Shown: piece by piece, positions 11,276-58,037 of the stretch
Numbering within the stretch: position 1 is the stretch's first letter
Layout: every line of letters begins with the position of its first letter
From: Hymenobacter edaphi
GTDB taxonomy: Bacteria; Bacteroidota; Bacteroidia; Cytophagales; Hymenobacteraceae
NCBI RefSeq assembly: GCF_003258365.1
Contig: NZ_QHKM01000001.1
Location: 682,001-746,000 of the forward strand
Reading direction: 5' to 3'
DNA: 64,000 nt
Notes under the pieces: model-generated
Database searches by the model: none
What the model was told of the DNA's origin: nothing
What the model saw: the letters and a program-made list of their open reading frames with translations, nothing else
Program-made: the position numbers and the translations under genes

Positions 11276-12310
11276 ATGGATCATAATCAGGACCGCCTCG
11301 CGCTGCCGGTCGGCACCACCCTCGACCGGTTTATCATGCGCAAGCAGGAGGACTTTCCCTACGCTACCGGCGAGCTGTCCCAGCTGCTGCGCGACATTGC
11401 GCTGGCGGCCAAAATCGTCAACCGCGAAATCAACCGCTCCGGCCTGATTGACATCACCGGCGCCTACGGCCAGCAAAACGTGCAGGGCGAAGAGCAGCAG
11501 AAGCTCGACGTCATTGCCAACATCCGCTTCATCCGCGCCCTGCGCAACGGCGGCGAGGTCTGCACGGTCATTTCCGAGGAAGACGAGGACATGATTCAGA
11601 CCGGCAAAAACCAGGGCAAGTACGTGGTGGCCATCGACCCGCTGGACGGCTCCTCGAACATCGACGTGAACGTGAGCATCGGCACCATCTTCTCGATTTA
11701 CCGCCGTCAGTCGGCCATCGGGCAGGAGGGCACCCAGGAAGACTGCCTGCAGAAGGGCGTGCACCAGGTGGCCGCCGGCTACGTGATTTACGGTTCGAGC
11801 ACCATGCTGGTGTACACCACCGGCAACGGCGTCAACGGCTTCACCTACGAAGCTTCGCTGGGCGAATTTTTCCTCTCGCACCCCAACATCACCACGCCGC
11901 CGTCGGGCAACATCTACTCCATCAACGAGGGCAGCGCCAACTCCTTCCCCGAGGGCGTGAAGCAGTTTGTGCAGTACTGCAAGGACAGCAGCTTCTCGGC
12001 CCGCTACATCGGCTCCCTGGTGGCCGATTTTCACCGCAACCTGCTCAAGGGCGGCATCTACATCTACCCGGCCACGGCCAAAAACACCAACGGCAAGCTG
12101 CGCCTGATGTACGAGTGCAACGCCCTGGCCTTCATCGTGGAGCAGGCCGGCGGCAAGGCCAGCAACGGCCAGAAGCGCCTGATGGAAATTGAGCCGACCT
12201 CGCTGCACCAGCGCTGCCCGCTCTACATCGGCTCGACGGAACTGGTCGACAAGGCCGAATCCTTCCTCTCGCCCGAGCCCGCCGAAGCCGTGGCCGCCCG
12301 CGAAGCGTAG
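11276..12310 (+). CDS. fbp: class I fructose-1,6-bisphosphatase
   Basis: A 344-residue gluconeogenic phosphatase that converts fructose-1,6-bisphosphate to fructose-6-phosphate. Metal ligands are visible in ISEEDED (100-105) and [20 protein letters not shown] (119-138), the family hallmark. Residues near [17 protein letters not shown] bind substrate, and [19 protein letters not shown] follows as in other class I enzymes. The start ATG at 11276 gives normal length. It is monocistronic, with a strong bidirectional terminator at 12383-12416. Confidence 0.97.
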
Positions 12311-12382: not shown

Positions 12383-12416
12383 AAAAAGCCCCGCTGAGCA
12401 ATCAGCGGGGCTTTTT
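12383..12416. terminator. bidirectional terminator between fbp and the DUF5606 gene
   Basis: AAAAAGCCCCGCTGAG and the complementary CAGCGGGGCTTTTT close a 14-bp stem around CAAT, with A/T runs on both sides. It serves both convergent genes. Confidence 0.85.
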
Positions 12417-12433
12417 CGTGCGAATCAGGCCGA

Positions 12434-12982
12434 TTACTCCGCCTTCTTGCTTTTGCGCTTGGGCTTGTCTTCCGTAGCGGCTTCGGGGCTGCCGGCAGCA
12501 TCATCAACCTCGGTCGTTTGCGCGGGCACGGCGCCGCCGGTGCTCAGCTCATCCGTCGAGGCAGCAGCGGCTTCGGCTTCCTCCGCGGCCTGGTAGGGCA
12601 GGCGGCTGCTCACGGCTGCGTACCACGATACCAGTTTCTTGATATCGGAGAGGTACACGCGCTGGCGGTCGAAGTCGGGAATGATGTCGCCTAGGAAGCC
12701 GGTCAGCTCCTTGTCGGTCGACTTGTTGGTCACGGGCAGCTGCTCCCCGTGCTTCTGGTAGATGCGGTCAAACACCTCCGTCAGCGGCACCGTGTAGTCC
12801 GGGTCTTCGGTGTAGATGCTGATTTCGTGCAGCAGCGAAACTTTGTTGCGGGCCGAAGCTACGGAGCGGCGGGCCTGCGGGTCCAGGGTTTCCACCAGCA
12901 CACCGTTGTTGGCGGGGCGCACGAGGCGGTAGAGGCCGGGCATACCGCTGATGGCGGCAATTTCCCTCAGGTCGTAGGGCAT
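12434..12982 (-). CDS. DUF5606-type protein (Bacteroidetes-specific)
   Basis: A 182-residue cytoplasmic protein. The N-terminal segment LREIAAISGMPGLYRLVRPANNG (residues 5 onward), the following VLVETLD, and HEISIYTEDPDYTVPLTEVF match the DUF5606 family as I know it. Residues 60-140 carry a helical second module. The tail (about 135-182) is acidic, then ends with the basic KPKRKSKKAE, and is probably disordered. Function is unknown. It sits just upstream of, and on the same strand as, no close partner; the TonB-like gene starts 37 bases behind its ATG, so they may be read in tandem. Confidence 0.8.
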   Translation of the reverse strand: MPYDLREIAAISGMPGLYRLVRPANNGVLVETLDPQARRSVASARNKVSLLHEISIYTEDPDYTVPLTEVFDRIYQKHGEQLPVTNKSTDKELTGFLGDIIPDFDRQRVYLSDIKKLVSWYAAVSSRLPYQAAEEAEAAAASTDELSTGGAVPAQTTEVDDAAGSPEAATEDKPKRKSKKAE

Positions 12983-13018
12983 AAAGAGCGGGGAATGGGA
13001 AGTGAGAAAAAAGCGGGG

Positions 13019-13495
13019 TTATTCGGCCACCGTGTTGGCGCCGGCCGCGCCCAGCTTGAAGCTGATGGGCAGGCTGGTCAGGATGGGGTACTCGGGCTTC
13101 TTGAATTGCAGCAGCTTCACCAGGCGCAGGGCCTCCTCGCCGGTGCCGCCGCCTACCTGCTTTACGAGCTTCACGCCGCTCATGGTGCCGTCCGGCGTCA
13201 GGGTGAAGCTCACGATGCAGGTACCCTGAATGCGGTTGCGGCGGGCCAGCAGCGGGTACTTCATTTCCTTGTAGATGAAGTCGTACATGGCCTGCTGCCC
13301 GCCTTCGTAGTACTCGGCCACGGGAATGGATTTCGGGGCCGCCGTGGCAATTTTGGTAACCGGGTCCTGCGCCGGGGCCACTTCGGGAGCCGGCGCGGTG
13401 CCTTCGGTTTTCACTTTCACTTTCTGCTGGGCCAGGGCGGGCAGCGCAACCAGCGCCGACAGGGCCAGGGCCAGCGTGAAGGTGGTCTTTTTCAT
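13019..13495 (-). CDS. TonB C-terminal-like periplasmic protein
   Basis: A 158-residue exported protein with signal peptide residues 1-22 (ending ALPALAQ). A linker begins QKVKVKTEG and is Pro/Ala-rich. A TonB/TolA C-terminal-type domain (about 65-155) contains YPLLARRNRIQGTCIVSFTL (20 residues) and DGTMSGVKLVKQVGGGTGEE. There is no N-terminal transmembrane anchor beyond the signal peptide, so it is probably not a classical energy transducer. It may be a periplasmic partner. The KVKTK motif reappears in the tail of the PorE-like protein at 14676. The ATG ending at 13495 is the start that opens the signal peptide. Confidence 0.85.
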   Translation of the reverse strand: MKKTTFTLALALSALVALPALAQQKVKVKTEGTAPAPEVAPAQDPVTKIATAAPKSIPVAEYYEGGQQAMYDFIYKEMKYPLLARRNRIQGTCIVSFTLTPDGTMSGVKLVKQVGGGTGEEALRLVKLLQFKKPEYPILTSLPISFKLGAAGANTVAE

Positions 13496-13573
13496 GGAGA
13501 GGAGGGGTGGAAAAGAGAAGGAAACAAAACGAGTGCGCAGCGCGCGTTCCGGCATGGCAATTACGCTGCCAAT

Positions 13574-49255: not shown

Positions 49256-50532
49256 AGCTTCTGCTCCTGCTCGTTGCCAATGCTGCCGTGCTCGGGGGGC
49301 TGTACCGCTGGCTGCGGGCCCAGCGCCGTCTGCCGGGCTTAGGCTACCTGGTGGTGCCTACGCTGGCGCTGCGGCTGCTGGCCGGCGCGGTCAGCACCAT
49401 CCGCCCCACCGACGACGCGTGGTACTACCACCTCTGGTCGGGACAAATGGCCGCGCAGCTCTGGGCAGCGCCGGACCAGTGGCTGCAGATGCTGACCACC
49501 GACGAGTTTCATTTCGGCGAGCGGCACCTGGTCTTTCACGGCTATTCCAACACCTTCTTCTTCATGAAGCTGCTGTCGGCCTTCGGCTGGCTGACGGGCG
49601 ACTCGTTGCTGCTGCAGGCGCTGTACCTCTCGCTGGCGGCCTTCGGGGCGTGCTGGACGCTGGTGCGCGTGCTGAGCCAGCTGTTTCCGGGCACCCGCGG
49701 CGCGGCCGTGGTAAGCCTGCTGCTCTGGCCCTCGGCGCTGTACTGGTCGAGCGGGGTGACCAAGGAAAGCCTGCTGCTGGCGGGCAGTGCCCTGCTGCTG
49801 GCCGCGGTGCTGCTGCTGCTCTACGGCCCGGTGGGCACCCGGCGCTGGGGGTGGGCCGCGGGGGCGCTGCTGGGCACCTGGCTGAGTTTTAAGATGCGCT
49901 TTTTCTTCGGCGGGGCGCTGCTGGCCCTGCTGCTGGCCCTGGCGGCGGTGCATTTCGTGAGTCAGCTGGGCGGGCCGCTGCGGCGGCGCCGCTGGCAGGC
50001 GCTGCTGCTGATTGGGCTGCTGGCTGCGGGGGCCTGGGGCGCGGGCGAAGTCAGCCCGGTGTTTCGCTTCAACAAGTTCGCCAGCCAGCTCACGCGCACC
50101 TATTCGGCCCTGCGGCAAAAGTCGCTGGGGCGGCCGCACGTGGCGCTGCCCGAGCTGGCCCCCACGGCCGAAAGCATCCTGCGGCACACGCCCAAGGCCA
50201 TTGCCAGTACCTTGTTCCGGCCCTTCGCCTGGGAGGGCGACACCGTGTTTTACGGCTTCGCGGCCCTCGAAAACCTGGGGCTGCTGCTGCTGGCCGGCCT
50301 GGCCGCCGCGGACTGGGCGCGCCGCCGCGGGGCGCCGCTGCCCTTTTTGGTGGCGCTGGTACTGGTGCTGTATTGTCTGCTGATGGCCGCGCTGGTGGGC
50401 CTGAGCACTCCGAACCTCGGCACGCTCAGCCGCTACCGGGCGCCGTGGCTGCCGCTGCTGGTGTACCTGCTGCTGGCCCAGCCCACCGCCGCCGGGCTGC
50501 TGCGGCGCCTGCGCATCCTCACACCGGCTTAA
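49252..50532 (+). CDS. polytopic membrane protein, PMT/ArnT-like glycosyltransferase fold
   Basis: A 426-residue protein with about ten helices, starting at a GTG that overlaps the DUF2851 stop. After the first helices come DDAWYYHLWSGQM and FHFGERHLVFHGYSNTFFFM (20 residues), and later LWPSALYWSSGVTKESLLL, the pattern of a dolichol-phosphate-mannose-type glycosyltransferase (GT-C) in which a catalytic acidic residue lies in the first loop. The donor and acceptor are unknown. The coupling to a DUF2851 gene gives no known pathway. Confidence 0.8.
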   Translation: MKLLLLLVANAAVLGGLYRWLRAQRRLPGLGYLVVPTLALRLLAGAVSTIRPTDDAWYYHLWSGQMAAQLWAAPDQWLQMLTTDEFHFGERHLVFHGYSNTFFFMKLLSAFGWLTGDSLLLQALYLSLAAFGACWTLVRVLSQLFPGTRGAAVVSLLLWPSALYWSSGVTKESLLLAGSALLLAAVLLLLYGPVGTRRWGWAAGALLGTWLSFKMRFFFGGALLALLLALAAVHFVSQLGGPLRRRRWQALLLIGLLAAGAWGAGEVSPVFRFNKFASQLTRTYSALRQKSLGRPHVALPELAPTAESILRHTPKAIASTLFRPFAWEGDTVFYGFAALENLGLLLLAGLAAADWARRRGAPLPFLVALVLVLYCLLMAALVGLSTPNLGTLSRYRAPWLPLLVYLLLAQPTAAGLLRRLRILTPA

Positions 50533-50572: not shown

Positions 50573-50619
50573 CGGCTTAGCGCGCCCCGCCGCGGGTGCC
50601 ATTTCCCGAAGATTCGCGC

Positions 50620-51252
50620 ATGGAAAATCCCGTAATCATCCTTGGTGCCCAGACCGTCGGCACCGCCGCCCTCGACGCCTTCACCAGCAACGACGTGGTG
50701 GTGTACTGCCTACTCGACGACAACCCCAAGCTCAAGGACACCGACCTGCACGACGTGCCCATCATGGGCGCCACCGACGACGAGGAGATGCTCAAGCTGC
50801 TCGGCAAGAAGTGCGAGGTGTTCGTGGCCACCGAAGACACGGCCTCGCGCAAGGCCCTGACCAGCATGCTGCGCCAAGAGTACGAGCAGGTGCCCGTCAA
50901 CGCCATTCACCGGGCCGCCAGCGTCTCGGAGCACGCCTGGCTGGGCCACGGCAACCTGATTTCGGCCGGCGCCGTCGTCGCCTCCGATGCCAAAGTGGGC
51001 AACGGCTGCCTGCTCGGCGTACGCTCCGTGGTCGACGTGCGCGCCCAGCTGGCCGACTACGTGGTGGTGGGTGCCGGCGCCATCATCAACGGCGACGCTG
51101 AAATCGGGGAGCAGGCCTTCATCGGCTCGGGCGCCGTGGTGGTGTCGGGCGTCAAAATCGGCGCCAAGGCCCGCGTGGGCGCCGGTGCCGTGGTGGTGGC
51201 CGATGTGCCCGCGAACCAAACGGTATTCGGCAACCCGGCGACGAAGGTTTAA
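50620..51252 (+). CDS. NeuD/PglD-type sugar O- or N-acetyltransferase
   Basis: A 210-residue protein. The N-terminal Rossmann part (1-85) reads VIILGAQTVGTAALDAF, then VVYCLLDDNPKLKDTDLHDV (20 residues). The C-terminal left-handed beta helix (95-205) has hexapeptide repeats such as GHGNLISAGAVVASDAKVGN (20 residues), and ends FGNPATKV. It resembles NeuD/PglD, which acetylate UDP-sugars or sialic acid precursors. Rossmann glycine pattern (GAQTVG) differs from the usual GxGGxG. No sugar pathway is adjacent, though a sugar amidotransferase lies 5 kb away. Confidence 0.85.
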   Translation: MENPVIILGAQTVGTAALDAFTSNDVVVYCLLDDNPKLKDTDLHDVPIMGATDDEEMLKLLGKKCEVFVATEDTASRKALTSMLRQEYEQVPVNAIHRAASVSEHAWLGHGNLISAGAVVASDAKVGNGCLLGVRSVVDVRAQLADYVVVGAGAIINGDAEIGEQAFIGSGAVVVSGVKIGAKARVGAGAVVVADVPANQTVFGNPATKV

Positions 51253-55792: not shown

Positions 55793-57013
55793 TTACGTGC
55801 CGCAGTTGAAGTACTTGTCGTAGGCCGATTCGGGCAGCAGGCGCAGCCGGCTGGCCAGCTTGATGGGCCAGCGCAGCAGCCGGATCAGCCCGTAGTTGTT
55901 GGGGTAGTCGCGGAAGGTCTTCACCGGGGCCGCCACAATCTGCTCAAACTCCTCCCGGCTCAGGCCCAGGCGCTTGATGCAGAGGTTGATGACCTTCTCG
56001 TCCTCGATGGCGTTGACGTGCCGGCAGCGCTCCAGTGCCTGCGCGCGCGACATCTGTCCCGAGCGCACCAGGGCGGAGTAGTTGAACAGGCGCCGGTCGA
56101 TGTTGAACTTGACGCGGTTCAGGTAGTAAATGACGCTCTGGTAGAGGTCGTCGAAGTAGTGCGCGCCGGGGTTCACCCAGTCCAGTTCCCGCTCCAGCAG
56201 CGCGTCGACTTCCGCCCGCACGTAGGGCAGGTGGTAGAGCAGCGTGACGGTCTTGATGCCGCGCAGCACCGTGTAGTAGAACATTTCCTTCACGTCCAGG
56301 TGAAAGCCCGGGTCGTTGGGCGCCCACTTGCGCAGGGGTACCGTACCGAACTGCCGGTGCACCGCCTTCAGGTACTTCCCGTCGAGGAAGTTCCACGACA
56401 GAGGCGCAATGCCCTCGGTGCGAAACGACTGCCCGATGATGATGCGCTGCACGCCTTCCTTGGCCGCCACCCCGTACAGGGCCGTGGCAATGCCGATGTC
56501 GGTGCCTTCCTCGATGTCGGGCGTGGAGGCCTTCAGGAAGGCAATCTTGAGGTCTTTCGACTCGCGCCAGTCCGAGGTGATGGTGCGCAGCTCCACGCCC
56601 AGCTTGCGGCAGGCCTTCACCATGTTTTCGCCGGCCACGGGGTTGCCGAAGCCGTCGTTGAAGTGCACGGCCAGGGGGCGCAGGCCCAGCTGCACCACGC
56701 AGTACCAGAGCGTGTAGCTGCTGTCGCGCCCGCCGCTTACGCCCAGCACGCAGTCGTATTTGCGGCCGCGGCCGAGGCGCTTCATGTCCTCGGCGGCGCT
56801 GCGCACGTAGGCCTCGCCCGCGGGCCCCAGCGGGTTGTCGCGGTCCAGCTTGTCGTGCAGCTCGCAGAAGTTACACTCCCCGGTGTGGGGGCGAAAGCGG
56901 ATGCCTGGCACCGTGGTATCCATTATGCACCGCGTGCAGCACTGGTAGCCCGGGTGGGGGGCCGGCTGGTCGATGGGTGAGTCGACGGTGGCGTTAACGG
57001 GGGAAGTGGGCAT
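55793..57013 (-). CDS. N-acetyl sugar amidotransferase (WbpG/PseA family, PP-loop)
   Basis: A 406-residue ATP-PPase that converts a UDP-N-acetyl sugar acetamido group to an acetamidino group, using ammonia. The PP-loop is VLGVSGGRDSSYTLWYCVVQ (20 residues). An N-terminal Cys pair (CCTRCIMDTTVPGIRF) plus CNFCELH gives a zinc site. In Pseudomonas O-antigen loci WbpG works with HisH2/HisF2-like ammonia suppliers; none is here. Instead a CN-hydrolase gene ends 61 bases upstream on the same strand. The ATG ending at 57013 is used; codons upstream encode a Ser/Pro-rich stretch. Confidence 0.9.
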   Translation of the reverse strand: MPTSPVNATVDSPIDQPAPHPGYQCCTRCIMDTTVPGIRFRPHTGECNFCELHDKLDRDNPLGPAGEAYVRSAAEDMKRLGRGRKYDCVLGVSGGRDSSYTLWYCVVQLGLRPLAVHFNDGFGNPVAGENMVKACRKLGVELRTITSDWRESKDLKIAFLKASTPDIEEGTDIGIATALYGVAAKEGVQRIIIGQSFRTEGIAPLSWNFLDGKYLKAVHRQFGTVPLRKWAPNDPGFHLDVKEMFYYTVLRGIKTVTLLYHLPYVRAEVDALLERELDWVNPGAHYFDDLYQSVIYYLNRVKFNIDRRLFNYSALVRSGQMSRAQALERCRHVNAIEDEKVINLCIKRLGLSREEFEQIVAAPVKTFRDYPNNYGLIRLLRWPIKLASRLRLLPESAYDKYFNCGT

Positions 57014-57074
57014 TGAGTACTGCTGTGGCAATAGGCGAGGGGTGAGGGCGGCGGGTGGGAGGAGAAAGGAGGAG

Positions 57075-58037
57075 TTAGGCGGGGTTGGGAAGCTCATCGA
57101 AGCGGTAGCCGAGGCGCTGCAGCCGGGCCGTAATGGCCGTGCCGCGCTCGGGGCGCTGGGGGCGGGGCAGGTCGGCCACAATCAGCTCGCCGGCAAACTC
57201 GTTGAATTTGCCCTGGGCCTTGATGCCGTCGGCCGCCACGGCCAGCGAGCAGCCGACGCTCTTCTTGCCCTCGTAGGGCCCGCCCACGATGTAGCCCACC
57301 GAGGTGGTGCCCACCACCACCACGTTGTAGTAGGAAGCCAGAATCTGGTAGGGCTTGATCCACTTTTCGCGGTACGGGTCGTCTTCTTCCGTGACGGAGT
57401 AGTCTACCGTCCACGACGAGGGCGAGAGGATGATTTCGGCGCCCATGCGGGCCAGGGTGTGCCCGATGGGTAGCCCGTCGATGTAGTTGTCGGCGCAGAT
57501 GTTGAGGCCCAGCCGGCCCAGCGGCGTGTCGATGACGTTGAGCGTGGTGCCGACTTCGTAGAACGGCTGCTCAACGGTGAGCAGGTTGATTTTGTGGTAC
57601 TTGAGCAAAATGTCGCCCGCCGGGCTGATGAGCACCGCCGCGTTGTAGACGCGGCCGTCGGCGGCGCGCTCCGTCAGGCCGGCGCACACGTAGATGCCGT
57701 GGCGGGCGGCTTCCTGGCAAAGGATATCGGAGAAGCGGCCCGGAATGGGCTGGGCTTCGGTGAGGGCGCTGGGGTGCGTCCAGGCAAAGTCCAGGGTTTC
57801 GGGCAGCAGCACCAAGTCGCAGCCCTGCTCGGCGGCTTCGGCTATCATGCGGGCGGCGCGCTCCAGGTTGCGCAGCGGCTCACCGCCCTCCACCAGCAGC
57901 TGCCCCATGCCGACGCGGATGGAACCCGAATGGGCGGTGTTGGGGGGAAGTATGGGCTGGGGCGGGGGGGCCGGGGCGGCCACGGCAGCGGCCGGCGCCG
58001 GGTCTGTTTTCTTCCAGCGGCTGAACAAAGGCGGCAT
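57075..58037 (-). CDS. carbon-nitrogen hydrolase (nitrilase superfamily)
   Basis: A 320-residue hydrolase of C-N bonds (amides, glutamine-like side chains). After a Pro/Ala-rich start (1-40), the catalytic triad is Glu in LVLLPETLDFAWTHPS, Lys in KYHKINLLTVEQPFYE and Cys in GLNICADNYIDGLPIG. Family length and order are normal. It lies upstream of the PP-loop sugar amidotransferase (gap 61 bases), likely in one transcript. Nitrilase-type domains supply ammonia to the PP-loop of NAD synthetase, so an ammonia-supply role is inferred. An independent amidase role is the alternative. Confidence 0.9.
   Translation of the reverse strand: MPPLFSRWKKTDPAPAAAVAAPAPPPQPILPPNTAHSGSIRVGMGQLLVEGGEPLRNLERAARMIAEAAEQGCDLVLLPETLDFAWTHPSALTEAQPIPGRFSDILCQEAARHGIYVCAGLTERAADGRVYNAAVLISPAGDILLKYHKINLLTVEQPFYEVGTTLNVIDTPLGRLGLNICADNYIDGLPIGHTLARMGAEIILSPSSWTVDYSVTEEDDPYREKWIKPYQILASYYNVVVVGTTSVGYIVGGPYEGKKSVGCSLAVAADGIKAQGKFNEFAGELIVADLPRPQRPERGTAITARLQRLGYRFDELPNPA

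Follow-up and report, generated by a model that had tools for sequence, protein, structure and literature searches.

N-acetyl sugar amidotransferases of the WbuX/WbpG type, including Pseudomonas aeruginosa WbpG and Escherichia coli WbuX, are PP-loop enzymes with a four-cysteine motif, encoded among amino-sugar-like enzymes and served by partners of the HisH/HisF type. Their hallmarks have been described as a PP-loop SGGXDS and a CXXC..CXXC zinc motif (PMC10607449), and the gene table of a Sphingomonas cluster places a WbuX-type enzyme beside HisH/HisF (PMC11340318). Another arrangement is that of the two-subunit NAD synthetase of Thermus thermophilus, in which, according to passages of the paper on this enzyme, a separate nitrilase-type glutaminase works with a PP-loop synthetase, the nitrilase-type G-subunit and the PP-loop S-subunit of this type C synthetase being encoded side by side (PMC3376133). 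In this study, we describe a gene pair of Hymenobacter edaphi, encoding a nitrilase-type protein (N) and a PP-loop protein (W), that shares features with each. The two genes lie side by side as in the Thermus enzyme, yet W does not belong to NadE, the Cys-Glu of NadE glutaminases is missing from N, and the context of N-W relatives is one of sugar synthesis; the PP-loop and four cysteines are those of WbuX/WbpG, as are the amino-sugar-like neighbours in many relatives, whereas the W proteins linked to N have a nitrilase-type partner, no HisH/HisF nearby, and a separate group of their own. We consider it likely that N and W form a glutamine-dependent two-subunit sugar amidotransferase, in which a nitrilase-type ammonia donor replaced HisH/HisF once.

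The gene pair and its products

The pair lies in the window, by which we mean the whole 64,000-nucleotide stretch of DNA that was analysed, and is laid out as follows.

57075..58037, minus strand: N, stand-alone nitrilase-superfamily (CN_hydrolase) protein of 320 amino acids, proposed glutaminase/ammonia-donor subunit
57014..57074, minus strand: spacer from the N stop to the W start, exactly 61 bases, same strand
55793..57013, minus strand: W, PP-loop, WbuX/WbpG-like amidotransferase of 406 amino acids, proposed amidino-sugar synthase subunit

W starts with an ATG at 57013 and its stop codon ends at 55793; the listed open frame that contains it reaches further upstream, to 57181. The positions of the N stop codon and the W start codon agree with the same-strand gap of 61 bases given in an earlier sequence-only reading of this DNA, and the two genes are a probable operon.

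N belongs to the nitrilase superfamily (Pfam PF00795 CN_hydrolase, E 2.6e-34, 119.2 bits against a gathering score of 23.2), and the intact triad claimed for it was confirmed as Glu80-Lys149-Cys181, with E80, K149 and C181 invariant in an alignment of 28 diverse members. In this alignment E156, the expected second active-site Glu (placed by eye), is kept in 24 of the 28, and the catalytic Cys is followed by Ala or Ser and then Asp, whereas NadE glutaminases have Glu at this place. Because the curated nitrilase models all score far below their cut-offs against the window N, its substrate is not readable from its family. The predicted model of N (mean pLDDT 84.8) is closest among solved folds to mouse Nit2 (2w1v) and a formamidase (5g3p), with carbamoylases also matching and, at lower rank, a P. 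horikoshii amidase with bound glutaramide (6ypa); non-Hymenobacter sequences share 57-68% identity with the window N.

The pair had been read as a possible split NadE-like system, and this description is apt for the working principle but not for kinship, since the NadE of the same genome is encoded separately, scores 22.6 bits against the N profile and carries Cys-Glu in place of the Cys-Ala/Ser-Asp of N. A TIGR00552 search of this genome returned NadE on contig C36 (over cut-off; locus L135) and a sub-cut-off match at C11:473955, neither of which is W; a disguised NAD synthetase was considered and rejected, the genome having its separate NadE. As this NadE has a glutaminase domain to which N is not closely related, N, if a glutaminase, was probably recruited from the nitrilase superfamily independently. 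Outside the N group, the closest nitrilase in a sample of the phylum (L129 8385-9218, 170 bits) begins, by eye, like a signal peptide and comes from a genome without a W match, and in the open frames of L130, L131 and L132 a nitrilase-like domain follows what appears by eye to be an acetyltransferase-like first half.

W had been labelled WbpG/PseA-type. The WbuX/WbpG-like part of this label stands and the PseA part falls away, WbuX (NCBIfam TIGR03573) being the only strong curated match; at 190.8 bits, W itself scores just below the curated cut-off of 203.2. The same model matches all 26 members of sequence set A4 at E <= 0.001 (best E 1.9e-69). W carries both hallmark motifs, the SGGXDS as SGGRDS and the CXXC..CXXC as C26/C29/C47/C50. 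Among the aligned relatives, SGGXDS is present in 35/35 N-linked W rows and 35/36 other rows, and the SGGRDS variant in 35/35 versus 1/36. The cysteine pattern is found in 29/35 N-linked rows, the scripted start codon of the remaining six being placed downstream of the motif, and in 23/36 others. In addition, 27 positions are fixed (>=95%) in the 35 N-linked rows and occur at <=15% in 32 other rows, those near the PP-loop including R96, N119, D120, N124 and P125. The predicted model of W (mean pLDDT 88.3) has the Legionella N-acetyl sugar amidotransferase 8wex_B as its best solved match (rank 1, E 4.4e-14, TM 0.58/0.60), which makes 8WEX the closest system by fold, followed by a TtuA-type sulfurtransferase (E 3.3e-7); non-Hymenobacter W sequences are 56-73% identical to that of the window. 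An extended C-terminal loop is given as a mark of two-subunit NAD synthetases (PMC3376133). The conserved YDKYF-like tail of W was considered as a docking signature and rejected, because the nearest HisH/HisF-type rows end similarly (VP..YxKY) and the tail is thus not specific to a nitrilase partner.

Linkage of N and W

In a first sample of 58 relatives, close W sequences (80-100% identity) were found in ten genomes including that of the window, and in 10/10 of these N lies immediately upstream of W on the same strand. A survey of 200 genomes of the family, with N taken at E <= 1e-30 and N-clade W at over 600 bits, identified N in 72 and W in 71 genomes, each of the 71 also holding N. Of the W matches, one has an internal stop codon and one is without a start, and the 72nd N genome (G604) has W in pieces beside N. 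In 70 of the 72, N directly precedes W, both on one strand, with 71-244 bases between the profile matches, and in G606 the pair is split across two contigs. In ten further genomes of the 200, N is absent and the sole W relative is distant. Two genomes (G451 and G575) hold, besides a full pair, an additional W on a short contig that lacks N. Both of these extra W copies (L137 8154-10973 and L138 5613-7799, from Hymenobacteraceae) adjoin a PMT/ArnT-like membrane protein, the best match of which is ArnT, at a score far below the curated cut-off. Across 395 genomes sampled from the phylum, N above 400 bits and W above 500 bits occur only in G000 and G016, the next scores being 170 bits for N and 398 bits for W.

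A scan of the collection anchored on N, by the N alignment and two peptide patterns, kept 80 of 118 related loci; such a scan cannot reveal an N-clade W without N, for which the tested ground is Bacteroidota (the 200 family and 395 phylum genomes). The 80 loci comprise 49 from Hymenobacter and its near kin and 31 from uncultured non-Hymenobacter genomes, whose titles name, among others, Omnitrophota, Acidobacteria, Opitutia, Nealsonbacteria and Bdellovibrionales, together with Flavobacteriales, Sphingobacteriales, Chitinophagales, Bacteroidales and Cytophagales. W is on the same strand in 79 of the 80 loci (in some of them cut by a contig end), and the 80th stops at a contig end. It is directly downstream of N in 77, upstream in L126, and 3.2 kb away in L099. 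In several distant relatives the two genes, by scripted start codons, overlap or almost touch, and no natural N-W fusion was found among the 80 loci. L099 (8109-13388, Omnitrophota) has other genes between N and W and, just before W, a frame (11992-12189) that matches the N profile a second time over a short length (55 bits). Distances among N sequences correlate with those among W sequences (Mantel r 0.88 for 74 loci and 0.79 for the 27 non-Hymenobacter loci), with 0 of 2000 permutations as high as the observed value.

The pair turning out rare and unlinked in relatives had been named as the outcome that would tell against the sequence-only reading; with N and W adjacent in 70/72 family genomes and linked at 79/80 N-anchored loci, that reading survives. 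The linkage might still be merely chromosomal, two unrelated conserved genes having stayed neighbours by chance or through a common promoter: in Hymenobacter the pair repeatedly lies among ferredoxin and ValS genes, which stay together in a genome that lost it. However, N and W also occur together in other phyla with different neighbours, many of them named by eye, and the genome in question (G506) lost not only N but also W, save for a 68-codon remnant between the ferredoxin and ValS genes; already contradicted by the family and collection counts, this explanation is in our view very improbable.

HisH/HisF and the ancestry of W

The place of HisH/HisF differs sharply between the N-linked W proteins and their relatives. 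Within the flanks of the N loci (at most 8 kb per side), HisH/HisF was found in 0 of 80. Of 28 loci with other W relatives, taken from 56 genomes of the phylum sample with distant matches only, 25 have a HisH or HisF match no further than 1.5 kb away by the same profiles; the remaining three are L026, L027 and L020, and inspection by eye of a longer region around L020 (L128) revealed both genes. In the first sample, HisH and HisF lie beside W, with no N-type nitrilase, in 7/7 genomes with a distant W relative. The L128 region (G242) also holds, at 12386-13534, another W relative, which lacks the four-cysteine motif, beside a HisH-like gene.

HisH/HisF-like partners encoded elsewhere in the genome had been raised as a second outcome that would count against a nitrilase donor. 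In each of the ten N-W genomes of the first sample, one HisH scores above cut-off, far from W and immediately adjoining two HisA/HisF-type matches (told apart as HisA and HisF by their scores), and so sits in a histidine-operon-like cluster. Among the 31 non-Hymenobacter pair genomes, mostly MAGs, HisH at E 1e-15 was absent in 13, single in 13, and present in two or three copies in five. Since neither the linkage nor the ten-genome HisH/HisF comparison went against it, the claim that a nitrilase stands in place of HisH/HisF is well supported by the comparison of sequences and gene order.

In a tree of 71 W rows (35 N-linked, 36 others), which is unrooted with a root for drawing only and has three rows marked as very long-branched, the N-linked W proteins make up one side of a branch supported 100/100, and the partner label changes once; the label of the other rows denotes their origin in W-profile searches without linkage to N and was assigned by origin, not by neighbours. 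The nearest row to the N-linked group is L020 (support 90/75), whose region holds HisH and HisF by eye. Because of this single split, the one label change and the position of L020, the tree suggests that the donor was replaced a single time, at the base of the N-linked group, and we infer that the swap went from HisH/HisF to the nitrilase.

We propose that W, using ATP through its PP-loop, would act on an N-acylated sugar, either nucleotide- or lipid-linked, by activating its acyl-amide and exchanging the oxygen for ammonia; the product would be an amidino sugar of the acetamidino or formamidino kind. N, as a nitrilase-type amidase, would free this ammonia, most likely from glutamine, and hand it to W, the job that HisH and HisF do for ordinary WbuX/WbpG. 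The partner would have changed a single time, at the origin of the N-linked W proteins, after which both genes may have travelled together. Glutamine as the donor, direct ammonia transfer, amidination and the identity of the sugar are what we infer from these comparisons, and glutamine hydrolysis by N coupled to transfer is its putative function. Counted against the donor model are the Cys-Ala/Ser-Asp of N, E156 in 24/28 members, the lack of a fusion, the two extra W genes without N, the two or three HisH in 5/31 genomes, and the pair standing alone in Hymenobacter.

Several of these points might suit a different division of labour, in which N and W share a pathway without being donor and acceptor, N hydrolysing an amide of the sugar or an intermediate (trimming or proofreading) and W taking free ammonia. 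N scores with general amidases and nitrilases and not with a glutaminase family, the typical NAD synthetase with a single PP-loop domain is described as using free ammonia (PMC3376133), and two genomes have an extra W without N. These two genomes also hold the full pair, however, and the complementarity with HisH/HisF, which a replaced donor predicts, is left unexplained by a trimming enzyme. We therefore regard this alternative as unlikely, and retain the two-subunit amidotransferase as the better reading.

Sugar clusters and the product of the pair

In the Arn system (ArnB/ArnA/ArnC/ArnE-F/ArnT), aminoarabinose is placed on lipid A; it is not known to include a PP-loop amidotransferase or a nitrilase. 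The few cluster proteins of N-W relatives that were scanned match Arn/Pse families, with ArnF best, ArnC second best, and aminotransferases of the PseC/ArnB type, all matches being significant yet far below the curated cut-offs. Judged by gene content, about half of the 31 non-Hymenobacter loci appear to lie in Arn-like sugar clusters. At E 1e-10, with profiles built from five of the 31 loci, we counted a DegT aminotransferase in 17/31, SDR in 17/31, Gfo/Idh in 13/31, GT2 in 16/31 (13 of them above 300 bits and ArnC-like), a NeuD-like hexapeptide transferase in 10/31 (three weak) and a formyltransferase in 2/31, the SDR matches, like some of those to GT2, DegT and the hexapeptide transferase, being weak and perhaps generic. 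A small ArnF/EamA-like gene is present in 16/31 and, by coordinates, lies directly before N in 16/16. A NodU-like carbamoyltransferase occurs in 10/31, directly after W in eight (L103, L107, L109, L110, L113, L120, L124 and L127), and its presence suggests a different or further modified product at these loci.

The sequence-only reading had seen no O-antigen cluster around the pair. This holds for the part of the window examined, where the only sugar-cluster gene is a hexapeptide transferase at 50596-51252, of weak kinship (77 bits) to the NeuD-like profile, but not for about half of the 31 non-Hymenobacter loci. Of the context families, only the hexapeptide profile matches at the 49 Hymenobacter-type loci (40/49), and ArnF in the window's own genome amounts to a 24.9-bit match. 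Upstream of the hexapeptide transferase, at 49276-50532, is a membrane-protein-like frame of about 418 amino acids without a Pfam match.

Taken with N and W, the neighbouring genes (for a dehydrogenase, an aminotransferase, an acyl- or formyltransferase, a lipid-carrier GT, a flippase-like protein and a membrane GT) would fit the making of an N-acylated amino sugar, its amidination and its export on undecaprenyl phosphate. N could nevertheless be an ammonia donor while W amidates a carboxylate, of a sugar or of another molecule, with no amidino sugar formed: the window W is below the WbuX cut-off, the N-linked W proteins are a group of their own with 27 specific positions, several near the PP-loop, and the NodU-like gene after the pair in eight non-Hymenobacter loci means that products may differ. 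On the other side stand the family kinship of W and its fold, with 8wex best, and the neighbouring aminotransferase and acyl- or formyltransferase, which would make an N-acyl sugar as substrate. Carboxylate amidation seems to us unlikely, slightly more so than the trimming role, and amidination of an N-acylated sugar is preferred.

As a tentative extension, plausible but held with less than even confidence, the N-W enzyme derived by the partner swap may be the amidinating step of an Arn-like pathway across several phyla. Under this extension, an amino, N-acylated and amidinated sugar on undecaprenyl phosphate would be flipped and passed to lipid A or protein in members of Bacteroidota, Omnitrophota, Acidobacteria, Opitutia and Bdellovibrionales.

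In the literature searched, mostly open papers with most subscription papers outside, N-acetyl sugar amidotransferase and carbon-nitrogen hydrolase never occurred together, nor did acetamidino and nitrilase, and no pair of a nitrilase and a WbpG-type amidotransferase was evident from title or start of abstract among the matches listed. The sole precedent in the literature examined for a nitrilase-type glutaminase feeding a PP-loop enzyme is NAD synthetase. If our reading is true, the pair would be a second, separate recruitment, and the ammonia-donor module of PP-loop amidotransferases would be exchangeable wholesale. It would also offer two comparable systems, one fed by HisH/HisF and one by a nitrilase, on related sugar enzymes for tests of docking and channelling, and would mark out a candidate cluster for amidino-sugar synthesis in phyla of which little is known, Omnitrophota among them.
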